This document shows positions 2,017 through 48,385 of a stretch of 49,306 bases of DNA, piece by piece (the stretch's first letter is position 1; each line of letters starts with the position of its first letter). The position numbers were made by a program, and so were the translations under genes. Origin of the DNA: Deltaproteobacteria bacterium (lineage in GTDB: Bacteria > Desulfobacterota > Syntrophobacteria > BM002); assembly GCA_022340515.1 (NCBI GenBank), contig JAJDNT010000239.1, forward strand, positions 1 to 49,306, given 5' to 3'. The notes below the pieces were generated by a model, which made no database searches, had not been told where the DNA came from, and saw only the letters and a list, made by a program, of their open reading frames with translations.

Positions 2017-2101
2017 GCACTAGGTTCAGGTGGACGATGCGAGGGGGGGGAGCAACGGGGTTACGGAGATTAAATGTCAGACGACAGAGGACAAATTTTT
2101 C

Positions 2102-2262
2102 AAAGTTCTGAATACCCGCCCGCCTCGCCTGAGCGACTCGCGATGGCGGGCAGGTCGAACACCAGAACAAGGAACCGCAGAATGATGAAGTGATCACTTC
2201 GATATTCGAAATTCCTTGTTCGACATTCTGCGGTTCGAAGAATGGCTAGCTCAGATCAATTC
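2102..2262. repeat. Intergenic repeat family A, copy 1, with a ~40-nt GC-rich insertion at about 2115-2154
   Basis: Near-identical to 6877-7000: CAGAACAAGGAACCGCAGAATGATGAAGTGATCACTT.GATATTCGAAATTCCTTGTTCGA.ATTCTGCGGTTC. Confidence 0.85.
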
Positions 2263-2276
2263 AATTTTGATTGTTT

Positions 2277-2325
2277 TGCTCTTGAATTCTGAATTCTGAC
2301 TCCTGACTTCTATCTCCTGTCTGCT
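2277..2325. repeat. Heptad array
   Basis: tgctctt gaattct gaattct gactcct gacttct atctcct gtctgct in strict 7-nt register. Confidence 0.85.
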
Positions 2326-6772: not shown

Positions 6773-6870
6773 CTAGGCACTATGCGCTAGGCACCAAGGG
6801 GTCAGTGGTCCGTGGCAAAAAGGCAGAAGACGGTATATGGAGGAGGGAGGTCAGGAGACAGACCACAGAT
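6773..6870. repeat. Degenerate heptad array (14 units)
   Basis: ctaggca ctatgcg ctaggca ccaaggg gtcagtg gtccgtg gcaaaaa ggcagaa gacggta tatggag gagggag gtcagga gacagac cacagat. Confidence 0.55.
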
Positions 6871-6876
6871 GATTTA

Positions 6877-7000
6877 AAGTACTGAATATCGAACCGCAGA
6901 ACAAGGAACCGCAGAATGATGAAGTGATCACTTGGATATTCGAAATTCCTTGTTCGATATTCTGCGGTTCAAAGAGGCGGCAGCCCAGATGAATTCAATT
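6877..7000. repeat. Intergenic repeat family A, copy 2 (uninterrupted)
   Basis: Direct copy of 2102-2262 lacking the ~40-nt insertion. Confidence 0.85.
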
Positions 7001-7083
7001 CTGATACTTTCTCCTCAATTCCCGTTTCGACTACTGGCCTCTAGCTCTATGCTCCGTGCCAAGATTCGAGATGAGAAATTAAA

Positions 7084-8106: not shown

Positions 8107-8123
8107 GGCAGCCTCAGGGTAAT

Positions 8124-8311
8124 CCTAGCCCGGATATTTCATGAATTGCTGTCGCGAGATCACGAAGATGGGCTTGCCACCTGGCAACCGCAGGGTGTTG
8201 GGCCTGAGGCGTACCTGAACGGTACGTCGCAAGGGGCGATACCCGAGGACGCCAGGAAGGAAGGCCATATTCCCGATCGCAGCAAGTTATTTATGAAATA
8301 TGCGGGCTAGG
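8124..8311. repeat. 188-nt inverted-repeat element (MITE-like or structured RNA)
   Basis: Ends CCTAGCCCGGATATTTCATGAA / TTATGAAATATGCGGGCTAGG are inverted complements; inner arms ttgctg..gatc / gatcgcagcaa; hairpin gcgtacc-tgaac-ggtacgt. Confidence 0.8.
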
Positions 8312-17652: not shown

Positions 17653-17750
17653 TGATAGTAGCAATTAAGAGATTGGCTGCAGATTATAGGAACGCTAAGC
17701 CCTTATGTCAAACCAACGATGGCGCCATCTGGTCAGTTGCCCGTGATAAG

Positions 17751-17834
17751 GCATAGAGCAGAGGGCATAGAGCATAGAGTTCAAACATTTCGAAATTCGA
17801 AATTACCAGACCTGCCTAGTCCTTAGTGCCTAGT
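17751..17834. repeat. Heptad arrays
   Basis: gcataga gcagagg gcataga gcataga gttcaaa; cgaaatt cgaaatt; tgcctag tccttag tgcctag. Confidence 0.8.
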
Positions 17835-31938: not shown

Positions 31939-31956
31939 GACCAGATCCTTAATTGT

Positions 31957-32190
31957 TTGTCCGTTGTCAGTTGTTCAAATCGTTCAATCGTTCGCCTTCG
32001 GTGAAGTCGTTCAAACCGTAAAGACCTAAGTAGCCAGTAGTCAGTAGCCGGTAGCCAGCAAGGAAAAAATATAGTTCCATTTCATATCTCCTGGCTCCTG
32101 ACTCCTGAATTCTCCCTCCTTTACCTTATGCCTTGCGCCCTGCGCCTTGTGCCTCTTACTCCATGCCCTATGCTCTATGCTCTGTGCGCT
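31957..32190. repeat. Composite intergenic array: 3 heptads, 6 nonamers (31970-32023), 4 heptads (32029-32056), 15 heptads (32086-32190)
   Basis: Unit boundaries verified by base counting; the last block overlaps the MMPL stop codon at 32168-32170. Confidence 0.85.
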
Positions 32191-40982: not shown

Positions 40983-41040
40983 ATCGCTAATTGGAGCAAA
41001 TCTTGCAAGGCCTGATCATGAAAAAATCATCCAAGTAGTG

Positions 41041-41070
41041 CTCATCCGAAAACGGCCGTTTTCCGATGAG
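41041..41070. repeat. 30-nt near-perfect palindrome
   Basis: CTCATCCGAAAACGGCCGTTTTCCGATGAG, one mismatched pair. Confidence 0.85.
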
Positions 41071-41075
41071 CGCGT

Positions 41076-41163
41076 TCAGTTATCAGCGCTCAGCCATCGG
41101 CAACATAAATATAAATACAAAATATTAAGCTGACGGCTGATTGCTGAATGCTGACAGCTCCAT
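41076..41163. repeat. Heptad arrays in inverted arrangement
   Basis: tcagtta tcagcgc tcagcca tcggcaa / gctgacg gctgatt gctgaat gctgaca gctccat. Confidence 0.85.
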
Positions 41164-41212
41164 GCGGGAATCTCGGATTTCCGGATGGAAAGTAACCAAG
41201 GAGGAACAACCA

Positions 41213-43156: not shown

Positions 43157-43191
43157 GCCTAGCGCAAAGAGCATAGCGCATAGCGTAAGCT
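43157..43191. repeat. Heptad array (5 units)
   Basis: gcctagc gcaaaga gcatagc gcatagc gtaagct. Confidence 0.8.
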
Positions 43192-44479: not shown

Positions 44480-45715
44480 ATGGCAAGAATACCAATAAGC
44501 ATAACCGGCTTGGGCATCATAAACGGGCTGGGTATTGGAAAATCGACATTTTGGCACGAGCTGGTTAGGGGTAAATCTGGTATAGCACCGATTATGGGTT
44601 TCGATACTGGCAAATATGTTTGCAATCTTGGGGCTGAGATACCCAATTTCAATGCCAAGGATTTTATGGAACCTCGCTTTTATCGCAGACTAAGTCGCCA
44701 ATCTCGCCTTGCGGTTGCCGCGAGCATCGAAGCCATAAATGACAGTGGCTTGGAAATCTCGGAGCTGAACCGCCAGCGGATCGGAGTGGTCTTTGGAACC
44801 GCCTTTGGTAGTACGGAGCAAACGGATGCGTTTTTTGTAAGCCTTTTGGATCATGGTCCACAGGCGGCTGACCCAATACTTTTTCCAGATACGGTGCCTA
44901 ACGCTCCTGCCAGCCATGTCGCCATGTATCATGGGATACAAGGTCCCAATAGCACCTTTTGCCAAAATCATCTCTCTGGTGAATGTGCCCTGGCTTACGG
45001 AATAGCATTGTTGGAGCAGGATAAAGCAGATGTTGTGCTGGTGGGAGGTGTTGACGAACTATCGAACATCCTATTTCACAGCCTCGACTCGGTTGGTGCT
45101 TTGAAGCCCATCAAGGAGCGAGAGACACTCCAGCCTAGCCAATTTCCCACAGGTAGAGGATTCATTGTCGGCGAAGGGGTTACCTGCTTGGTGTTGGAGC
45201 GGGCGGAGTTTGCGGAGAGGGCAGAGAAAAAGAGCTATGGAACTATTTTGTCCCTGACGCTAACCAGTGGAATCGTGGCTCAGGCGCACTATGAACGAGA
45301 TGGTGGGGCCATGGCGCAAGGGATGCGGGTCGCATTGAAGGAGGCCAAGATCGCAGTGGAAGAGATTGGTATTATTGGGCTGGCCGCTAATGGGGTTGAT
45401 GAGCTTGAGGAAGGAGAAACTAAGGCTTTGGAGGAGGTTTTTGGTTATAGGTGGCATGCGATCCCTAGGCTACCAGTTCGTTATTTCGTCGGTGAATTCG
45501 GTAGTGCAGGCCTCCTGAACGTGGCAACTATTTTACTTTCCTTGGCCGAGGGAACTATACCACCGACCGTTCGAGGATCCGATCTGACCGGTTCTTTTGG
45601 TAAAGCTCAAAGATTTGCACTTGCGACTGATGAAACTATTGTTGCTGGAATGGCCATAGGTTCTACTTTTGGCGGCGGGAGCGCTTGTACGATTGTTGCG
45701 AGGCAACCGGAATGA
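44480..45715 (+). CDS. Beta-ketoacyl synthase homolog lacking catalytic residues (chain-length-factor-like)
   Basis: KS fold motifs present, but GPNSTFCQNHLSG, AANGVDELEEGE and RYFVGEFGSAG replace Cys/His/His regions. Confidence 0.87.
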   Translation: MARIPISITGLGIINGLGIGKSTFWHELVRGKSGIAPIMGFDTGKYVCNLGAEIPNFNAKDFMEPRFYRRLSRQSRLAVAASIEAINDSGLEISELNRQRIGVVFGTAFGSTEQTDAFFVSLLDHGPQAADPILFPDTVPNAPASHVAMYHGIQGPNSTFCQNHLSGECALAYGIALLEQDKADVVLVGGVDELSNILFHSLDSVGALKPIKERETLQPSQFPTGRGFIVGEGVTCLVLERAEFAERAEKKSYGTILSLTLTSGIVAQAHYERDGGAMAQGMRVALKEAKIAVEEIGIIGLAANGVDELEEGETKALEEVFGYRWHAIPRLPVRYFVGEFGSAGLLNVATILLSLAEGTIPPTVRGSDLTGSFGKAQRFALATDETIVAGMAIGSTFGGGSACTIVARQPE

Positions 45716-45828
45716 TGGAAAGGTGGAATAATGGAATGATGGGTCGAGAGGAATTAGACCAATGAGAAAAGACTTCATCTGCTTTAAGTCGCCAGAATTC
45801 CAATATTCCATTATTCCAACATTCCTGC
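45709..45828. repeat. Octad arrays in inverted arrangement
   Basis: ggaatgat ggaaaggt ggaataat ggaatgat (45709-40) / attccaat attccatt attccaac attcctgc (45797-828). Confidence 0.85.
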
Positions 45829-45860: not shown

Positions 45861-47240
45861 ATGCGCATACTCCTGATTTCACCAAACACCGAAATGCTAC
45901 CCGACCCAGTCTTCCCTCTTGGACTGGCCTTTTTGGGCGGTGCGCTCGAGCTCAGCGCCCACGAGTACCAGGTCCTTGATCTTTGCTTCGTTGAGGACTA
46001 CGGAGAAGCTTTGGAGCGGGCTGTAGCTAATTTTAGCCCTGAAGTAATAGGACTTTCCTTGCGCAATGTAGATAATGTGGCCTATCCCAATACCCATTCC
46101 TATCTGCCTTTTTACCGGAAGGTGGTTTCACATTTGCGAAAGCTTACCACCGCACCCATAGTTCTGGGGGGCTCGGGATTCAGCCTTATGCCGGGACAAA
46201 TATTGAGAGATCTGGAAGCAGACTATGGTATCGTGGGTGAAGGTGAGATTTCTCTTATTCTTTTCCTTGACCAATTGGAGCGTGGCCAGTCTATCTATCG
46301 GGTGCCCGGCCTCATTACAGCCCATTCCAACAAATCCTCACAAGCAATTTCACCACAGCGTTTTTCCATTCAGGATATCATTATGCCTAGCAGGGAAAAG
46401 CTTGCCAATGAAGCTTACCTTCGTTTCGGCGGCATGGGAAACGTCCAAACCAAGAGAGGTTGTGGCTTTTCATGTGTCTACTGTACTTACCCTTTGATTG
46501 AGGGAAAAGAGATTCGGTTGCGATCACCTAAGCAAGTTGGAGAGGAAATCCAGCACCTTTATGATCAGGGTGTCGACAATGTTTTCGTTGTTGATAATGT
46601 GTTCAATTTCCCCCCGCACCACGCCCAATCAATATGCAAGGAAATTTTACAAAGGAACTTGGAGGTGAAGTGGAGCTGCTACCTCAATCCACAGTTTGTA
46701 ACCGAGTCTTTGCTGTCTCTAATGAAAGAGTCTGGTTGTACCGGAGTAGAGTTTGGCACTGACGCCGGCTCCGACTCGGTTTTGAAGAGATTGGGAAAGT
46801 CATTTACTACAGAGGAGGTGCGGCGAGCATCGGAACTCTGCCACAAAGTAGGGCTATCCTCATGCCACTCCTTGGTTTTTGGTGGTCCGGGGGAAAGCAA
46901 GGAAACCCTCCAAGAAACCTTTGCTCTCATGGACGAGGTCTCGCCTACTGCAGTAATTGCCATGGTGGGTATAAGGCTTTTTCCAGGTACAAAACTTGCG
47001 GATTTCGCCTCCCCCGTAGATTTGATTATCGAAGACGACTCAATGTTAAAACCGACTTTCTATCTGGCTCAGTCAGTACGTCCTTTCGTCCTCGATATTT
47101 TGTACGAGCATGTGAAGGAGAACAAGAACTGGATTTTACCGGGGTCAAACGTAAATATCGACAGAAGACTACAAGAAAAACTGCGACGCTTTGGTCTCAA
47201 GGGACCTCTGTGGGAACATATGCAAGTAAGGCGAAAGTAA
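45861..47240 (+). CDS. B12-binding-domain radical SAM protein
   Basis: RILLISPNTEMLPDPVFPLGLAFLGGALE; KRGCGFSCVYCTYPLIEG. Confidence 0.92.
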   Translation: MRILLISPNTEMLPDPVFPLGLAFLGGALELSAHEYQVLDLCFVEDYGEALERAVANFSPEVIGLSLRNVDNVAYPNTHSYLPFYRKVVSHLRKLTTAPIVLGGSGFSLMPGQILRDLEADYGIVGEGEISLILFLDQLERGQSIYRVPGLITAHSNKSSQAISPQRFSIQDIIMPSREKLANEAYLRFGGMGNVQTKRGCGFSCVYCTYPLIEGKEIRLRSPKQVGEEIQHLYDQGVDNVFVVDNVFNFPPHHAQSICKEILQRNLEVKWSCYLNPQFVTESLLSLMKESGCTGVEFGTDAGSDSVLKRLGKSFTTEEVRRASELCHKVGLSSCHSLVFGGPGESKETLQETFALMDEVSPTAVIAMVGIRLFPGTKLADFASPVDLIIEDDSMLKPTFYLAQSVRPFVLDILYEHVKENKNWILPGSNVNIDRRLQEKLRRFGLKGPLWEHMQVRRK

Positions 47241-47246
47241 AGATCC

Positions 47247-47386
47247 AGCTGGCAGCTGGCAACAGGCAGCGCGCAGTGAACACAAGGCACTTTGGAATTT
47301 TTGATTTCGGATTTGGAGAGGCATAGAGCAGAGGGCATGGAGCATGGAGTAAGGAGCCAGAAGTCAGAATCCAGAATTCAGGAGAA
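47247..47386. repeat. 20-unit heptad array
   Basis: agctggc agctggc aacaggc agcgcgc agtgaac acaaggc actttgg aattttt gatttcg gatttgg agaggca tagagca gagggca tggagca tggagta aggagcc agaagtc agaatcc agaattc aggagaa. Confidence 0.85.
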
Positions 47387-47401
47387 AGGCAATCAAAGGC
47401 T

Positions 47402-47500
47402 TTTAAAGCCTTGAACGATTTGAACGAATCCGGCGAAGCCGGATGATAGAACGAATTAAACGATTTCAAAGGTTTCAACGTTTTGAACGGATTGAACAAT
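47402..47500. repeat. 11-unit nonamer array with in-register hairpin insertion
   Basis: tttaaagcc ttgaacgat ttgaacgaa tccggcgaa gccggatga tagaacgaa ttaaacgat ttcaaaggt ttcaacgtt ttgaacgga ttgaacaat. Confidence 0.85.
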
Positions 47501-47557
47501 GGATCCGCTTGGGGCGGAACCACGGACGATGGACCAGGCTCTGCTTGCGATAAGGGA

Positions 47558-48385
47558 ATGAGCGTGCTGAATCTCCTCACGGTGGACTTGGAAGACTGGT
47601 TTCATATATGCGAGGTGGAAAATCTGTTGCCTAGGGAAAAGTGGAACAGTTTTCCATCCACCGTGGTTGCAGATACGGAGAAACTTTTGACTTTGTTCGC
47701 TCAGGCGAGTTCACAGGCAACTTTTTTCGTACTCGGCTATATTGCAGATAACCACCCTGAGCTAATTAAACGCATTCATGATATGGGACACGAAATTGGC
47801 TATCACGGCTGGGATCATGAACTAGTTTACAACCTGAGCCCACGAGAGTTTCGCCAGATTTTGCGCAAGGGAATTGACTGTATCGGAAAGCTGATAGATA
47901 AGAGACCCGTTGGTTTTCGGGCGCCCCAGTGGTCGATAAATGATCGCAGTAGTTGGGCTTTAGAGATTTTGGCTGAGGAGGGTTTTGTCTATGACTCCAG
48001 CCTGGCTCCCCTAAAGATTATTGGAAACGAGTCCTATCCGAGGATCCCCTGGAAGATAGAAACAACGACAGGATACTTATGGGAATTACCGCCCTTGACC
48101 CTAAAGACTCCCTTTGGCCACTATCCCGCCGGAGGCAGTTGGGGCTTAAGACTTTTGCCTTACCCCGTACTTAGACACAGGGTGCGGGGATTCAACCGGC
48201 GCCAGCTGCCCACACTTTTCTATTTTCATCCCAGAGAGTTCGGCGGGAATAAGGGCTCTATCGGCCTTCCTCCATCGAAGAAGTTTGCCCTGTACGGCGG
48301 TATCTGGGGCAGCGAATCGCAGCTCATCAAGCTTCTGGCTGATTTTCCCTTTACCTCCATCGAAAATTATCTGAGTAAATTTTAA
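47558..48385 (+). CDS. Polysaccharide deacetylase with DUF3473-like C-terminus
   Basis: LLTVDLEDWFHICEVE, GHEIGYHGWDHELV, GFRAPQWS; start at ATG 47558 preferred over 47483, which lies in the nonamer array. Confidence 0.9.
   Translation: MSVLNLLTVDLEDWFHICEVENLLPREKWNSFPSTVVADTEKLLTLFAQASSQATFFVLGYIADNHPELIKRIHDMGHEIGYHGWDHELVYNLSPREFRQILRKGIDCIGKLIDKRPVGFRAPQWSINDRSSWALEILAEEGFVYDSSLAPLKIIGNESYPRIPWKIETTTGYLWELPPLTLKTPFGHYPAGGSWGLRLLPYPVLRHRVRGFNRRQLPTLFYFHPREFGGNKGSIGLPPSKKFALYGGIWGSESQLIKLLADFPFTSIENYLSKF

Follow-up and report, generated by a model that had tools for sequence, protein, structure and literature searches.

BIMEs of enterobacteria are mosaic combinations of short spacer motifs and are built from palindromic REP units. 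The intergenic element described here, found at 47 kb of the window (the whole stretch of DNA that was analysed, 49,306 nt), shares with them the mosaic of spacer motifs but is made of heptad arrays where BIMEs have REP units. The BOX elements of Streptococcus pneumoniae are dispersed over intergenic regions as composites whose end modules are fixed and whose tandem internal modules vary in number (PMC3049150). The heptad element is also composite, with distinct modules in a fixed order and a variable tandem module, a likeness of kind. Unlike in BOX, the modules are degenerate heptads and the variable array lies on the 5' side; the BOX host is unrelated. In REPINs, which are linked to RAYTs, the repeats come as inverted pairs (PMC3116915). 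Like REP and REPIN sequences, the element is short, intergenic and present in many copies, it has a palindromic core (module D), and Y1 transposases occur in most of the genus. It is, however, longer than a REPIN, heptad-built and often devoid of the palindrome. In REPINs, every unit that replicates has a pair of palindromic REPs in inverse orientation; no such constancy was found here, D being absent from many copies.

Heptameric intergenic repeats have been described in Xanthomonas and Nostoc (PMC4692102), and TAACTGA repeats in Beggiatoaceae (PMC4679880). Heptad repeats in bacterial spacers are usually ascribed to polymerase slippage at single loci. These repeats and the cyanobacterial STRRs resemble the element in their 7-nt period, intergenic position and degenerate words, and some words of its module B are identical in Nostoc. 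In the descriptions of those repeats, however, each tandem array consists of a single word family, whereas here several families are joined in a fixed order with non-repeat parts and are dispersed as a unit. In kind, BOX elements and REPINs are the closest systems; in building material, the closest are the heptameric repeats of Xanthomonas, Nostoc and Beggiatoaceae. Since module B lacks a local origin and the palindrome is absent from many copies, the element is filed with neither simple heptad repeats nor REPINs. It is a novel form of modular dispersed intergenic repeat, BOX/REPIN-like in kind and built from heptads. No description of ordered multi-word heptad cassettes was found in the largely open-access literature searched.

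The 47-kb site lies in a spacer of 317 nt, flanked by the gene of a B12-binding radical SAM protein (45861-47240, TIGR04072) and by that of a polysaccharide deacetylase (approximately 47558-48385). The sequence-only reading had described 47247-47386 (140 nt) as one array of 20 heptads. The period of 7 was confirmed, but the stretch is a mosaic of an AGCTGGC-type part, a GATTTCG-type part and a composite of modules A and B, with its core at 47320-47397. The spacer contains the following features:

47247 to 47288, forward strand: heptad module of the AGCTGGC/GCAGC type, an upstream neighbour outside the A-B core (sequence; TRF 47246-47270, period 7), which opens the same spacer in the related genomes G005 and G004.
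47289 to 47319, forward strand: stretch of the GATTTCG/GATTTGG type (Q), often found 5' of module A (Q-before-A adjacency; joint matches q54-q124 and similar).
47320 to 47351, forward strand: module A, a variable tandem array (GCATRGR)n of variable length and homogenised within the array (nhmmer match 47320-47395).
47352 to 47386, forward strand: module B, a rigid five-word cassette AGGAGCC AGAAGTC AGAATCC AGAATTC AGGAGAA (word tests; copy alignments).
47387 to 47398, forward strand: start of a non-heptad tail (GCAATCAAA...), broken off at 47 kb (copy alignment).
47412 to 47503, forward strand: nonamer array (GAACGATTT type) and a small GC-rich hairpin (TRF 47459-47497, period 9).

The adjacency of a GATTTCG-type stretch followed by module A was observed 9 times against 3.4 expected. 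The part at 47350-47397 matches the family consensus at 96%. The 47-kb copy retains A and B, breaks inside the tail and is without D. The stretch 47320-47397 is probably one copy, truncated at its 3' side, of a dispersed intergenic repeat with a modular build, and this repeat is essentially genus-specific.

The full element would begin with the variable array A, followed by the rigid cassette B, a unique tail of about 40 nt, the palindromic D and an inverted closing heptad array. Alternatively, a CTGGCTAC-type heptad array (C) may take the place of D after the tail. In the aligned copies, module A is (GCATRGR)n, B reads AGGAGCC AGGAGTC AGAATCC AGAATTC AGGAG (with AGRAGTC as the degenerate form of the second word), and the tail after B, GAAAAGCAATCAAAATTGACTTCATCT, is common to the copies and not heptad-periodic. 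Many copies in the source genome continue into D (GAACCGCAGAATGTCGAACAAGG...CCTTGTTCTGCGGTTCGA), which is near-identical among copies, and some D modules carry a nested GC-rich palindrome, always at one identical site. D is followed by TATTCAGTACTTTGAACCATCTG and then by closing heptads of the TCTGACCTC type. Related sites elsewhere in the window are listed below:

2066 to 2311, reverse strand: full-length copy comprising B, the tail, D (palindromic, with a GC-rich insert nested in it) and closing heptads.
6840 to 7060, reverse strand: full-length copy with partial A, B, tail, D and closing heptads (6840-7041 in the match to the complete element).
17750 to 17782, forward strand: module A alone (alignment; nhmmer).
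31950 to 32078, reverse strand: continuation of the 32-kb cassette, with AGTAGCC-type heptads and then nonamers (84% identity in a 199-column alignment with a non-orthologous spacer of G002, a sister species).
32079 to 32190, reverse strand: the partner proposed earlier for the 47-kb array, with A words, ARGGCGC words and B-type words (alignment; nhmmer).
43157 to 43189, forward strand: weak module A-type stretch (nhmmer E=7.5e-4).

The 47-kb array had been read as a repetition, in inverse orientation, of the ordered words at 32 kb. The local alignment of 47247-47386 with the reverse complement of 32086-32190 scores 44, compared with a mean of 24.0 (sd 4.5) when the heptads of both sequences are permuted; 3 of 1000 shuffles reach 44 (p=0.003). 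For 47314-47386 alone, the same heptad-shuffle null gives p=0.010. The pairing therefore passes the comparison with shuffled heptads that the sequence-only reading had set as its own test. Shared words and order hold over 43 nt (essentially module A and two words), but the full A-B order is shared far better elsewhere: better ordered partners (own_L047, L045, L042 and others) score 86-99, values reached by 0 of 500 shuffles. The 47 kb/32 kb pairing was thus discarded as the key relation, being significant but weak beside other loci; the array at 32 kb is a relative of mosaic make-up and not the source. The inverse orientation applies relative to the window but not otherwise: each array sits in a tandem spacer and reads in the direction of its flanking genes. 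The smaller subsets indicated at 17751-17785 and 2277-2325 are real; the first corresponds to A alone (17750-17782) and the second to B and tail (2269-2316). At 32168-32190, the 32-kb array enters the 3' end of an HpnN-like transporter gene, so that array words form the last codons of the gene.

Copies of the element are numerous. A query with 47303-47397 (BLAST and iterated nhmmer) gave 122 matches in two genome samples, 55 of which span A and B, and the reversed-sequence control of the profile search gave none. The samples consisted of 534 kb of the source genome, partly chosen for having matches, and 848 kb of G002 (26% of that genome). In contigs of the source genome picked regardless of matches, 13 A/B matches were present in 185 kb. 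A 209-nt probe reaching from B to the closing heptads had 43 matches in the source genome (a draft of 342 contigs, some of which end inside arrays), 40 in G005, 35 in G008 and 21 in G002, many of them 83-96% identical. Within the genus, the composite is present in dozens of copies per genome. The consensus of B and tail was found in all 10 genomes of the genus. From other genera of the same family, G010 gave 3 matches and G012 gave 1, and the consensus was found in 0 of the 44 remaining genomes of the class that were searched. The A-B-tail composite is essentially restricted to the genus and its near kin.

Phage records contained no match to the element. B-type words alone also match plasmids of Anabaena, Pseudomonas and E. 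coli, and plasmids of Nostoc hold B-like words with inverted partners but without the tail; these plasmid matches are at the level of words only. For instance, the Nostoc plasmids NZ_CP024790.1 and NZ_CP046704.1 carry B-type words, and their inverted heptad arrays draw on this vocabulary as well. Because the plasmid matches have B words without the tail, the words common to different phyla may be convergent.

Whether the words arose in place or were copied together can be read from their positions. In 39 copies of B, word identity was 0.799 at the same position between arrays, 0.614 within an array and 0.616 between different positions. As these copies had been found by similarity to B, the test was repeated on tail-anchored sites (at least 13 of 15 tail bases, intergenic, n=12). 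Same-position identity of B was 0.720 there, and the maximum in 300 shuffles was 0.626. For module A, identity within the array (0.513) was higher than at the same position between arrays (0.430), and its length ranged from 1 to 7 heptads. A preceded B on the same strand in 19 cases, while the other three arrangements occurred 2, 1 and 0 times, with a shuffle expectation of about 2. Since B words are closer between arrays at the same position than within an array, independent tandem growth is excluded for B, but not for A. Pure slippage was rejected for B on account of its position-specific words. A tandem 7-nt period above chance, as expected of heptanucleotide SSRs, is present (368 arrays versus 0 in the null), but the local tandem origin of such repeats was found in A only and not in B. 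The proposal of multi-word cassettes instead of independent repeats is thus upheld by the position-specific B words and the fixed order of A before B, with the exception of A, which is an ordinary variable tandem array. A simple quantitative test hence separates tandem growth (A) from block copying (B) within one element.

The comparison with a sister species showed how quickly the spacers change. From 28.9 kb onward, the window runs collinear with the main block of G002. At 47 kb, the spacers of the source genome, G005 and G004 open with AGCTGGC-type words and those of G002, G008 and G009 with GTCCGTTG-type words; later modules differ, and true orthologous spacers have little in common. The 32-kb cassette of the source genome aligns, with 84% identity in 199 columns, to the spacer that in G002 is the orthologue of the 47-kb one, so one cassette occupies non-orthologous loci of two species. 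Most of the 26 spacer gaps compared between the source genome and G002 hold different modules, a comparison with one sister species (91-97% protein identity) in which spacers are largely saturated. From the fixed order, the similarity of blocks and the differing blocks at orthologous sites, it is very likely that whole blocks were copied between spacers. Part of the similarity among copies could be due to gene conversion in place and not to new insertion.

At 41030-41198 of the window, an inverted pair of heptad arrays of about 160 nt (TCAGTTATCAGC.../GCTGACGGCTGA...) is absent at the orthologous G002 site. An octad hairpin at 45709-45825 (GGAATGAT.../...ATTCCAAT) persists in G002, where its words have changed. 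A 283-nt insert without G002 counterpart (L031 4165-4448), with the ends GAGACTGTTCAAT...ATTGAACAGTCTC, looks MITE-like. Another MITE-like element, distinct from this insert and with ends of the CCCGGATATTTCATGAAT type, was seen at 8114-8288 and at the G002 site orthologous to 8973, so that its placement differs between the two species. At L115 650-1286, a GC-rich stem (GCCCCACCCTTGCGGCTCCGTGCAAGGATGGGGC) and the sequence following it are strongly kept between species while the rest of the spacer is replaced; the stem region had no Rfam match.

Exchange through heptad homology is a plausible route by which the element may be copied, and one to which we give slightly less than an even chance. 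Heptad arrays would supply repeated homology for strand exchange or template switching between spacers, which would swap and truncate modules, and the A array would expand and contract by replication slippage. Many profile matches stop where A meets B (model positions 32-38). At 2089-2345, a heptad arm is present in both species (31 of 35 bases alike, by eye), whereas the tail and D are found in the source genome and not in G002. As to the hallmarks of a MITE, the element has imperfect inverted heptad arms, but the 26 spacer gaps revealed neither a clean, exact empty site nor a target duplication for it. Active copying was likewise not observed. Exchange between heptad arrays is favoured because breaks cluster at module borders, target duplication is unseen and a heptad arm persists without the inner block.

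The main rival is a non-autonomous transposable element, REPIN- or MITE-like, whose palindromic D would be recognised by a Y1 (RAYT-like) transposase acting in trans to move it. We regard it as possible but rather unlikely. It would agree with the RAYT link of REPINs and with a D that is palindromic and near-identical among copies. Y1 transposase genes were moreover found in the source genome, in G002 and in six other members of the genus (8 of the 9 genus genomes searched). Nevertheless, G008, a genome 95% complete, gave no Y1 match although it contains 35 element matches, and modules are not clearly enriched at Y1 loci; a RAYT-linked origin is disfavoured on these two grounds. D is missing from many copies, that at 47 kb among them, and the 26 spacer gaps revealed no target-site duplication.

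An explanation by function is improbable. The arrays would then be RNA or DNA hairpins, e.g., 3'-end or transcription terminator structures, conserved for their structure. An inverted partner lies within 150 nt of 108 of 338 arrays, versus 29 in the swapped-neighbourhood control and 13 for direct partners, and array density is higher in tandem and convergent spacers (1.75/kb) than in divergent, promoter-containing spacers (0.81/kb), both as hairpins of this kind would have it. The folding results speak against it. The B-tail regions fold no better than shuffles (mean z -0.5), and the full element folded as DNA gives z -0.93; with these values, a strong conserved hairpin for B-tail-C was rejected. 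Furthermore, the orientation of the element shows no bias to gene direction (45 vs 34), Rfam gave no match at the gathering threshold, and orthologous sites differ in module content. Rather than regulating the flanking genes, the elements probably persist as non-autonomous passengers that the spacers tolerate.

The least probable explanation, and a very doubtful one, is that of independent SSRs, each enlarged at its own locus by slippage, with a 7-nt period favoured, and alike only through the same favoured words: in many bacteria, long simple repeats are most often heptanucleotide repeats (PMC4679880, PMC4692102), B-type words recur in the plasmids mentioned above and module A is variable in length and homogeneous within the array, but the position-specific words of B, the fixed module order and the non-repeat tail and D common to the copies contradict it.

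The period of 7 dominates well beyond the element. In 1.38 Mb of the source and sister genomes, 368 period-7 arrays (149+219) with a score of at least 12 were counted, whereas a first-order Markov null of 342 kb contained no array at any tested period. At the same threshold, there were 25+30 arrays of period 8, 21+10 of period 9, 1+5 of period 6 and at most 7 each of periods 10-13; period 5 was almost absent. Only 14 of the 368 arrays lie inside genes, as delimited by a simple purpose-made gene caller. In the window and the 1.38-Mb sample, tandem periods are almost exclusively 7, 8 and 9 nt. Exchange through heptad homology could, more speculatively, be part of a wider scheme, for which our expectation is low: the spacers of the genus might be assembled from shared modules of 7-, 8- and 9-nt words with ordering rules, and heptad arrays might provide the homology for module exchange between non-orthologous spacers, leading to rapid combinatorial turnover of intergenic regions without a dedicated transposon end.

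Sister genomes show blocks at different spacers. Together with the word test, they make it directly testable how heptad repeats gain a shared vocabulary and spread. Degenerate heptad arrays should therefore not be treated as independent simple repeats.

In each of the radical SAM paralogues of G003, G004, G006, G009, G011 and G012, there is a single in-frame TGA, an indication of a selenoprotein.
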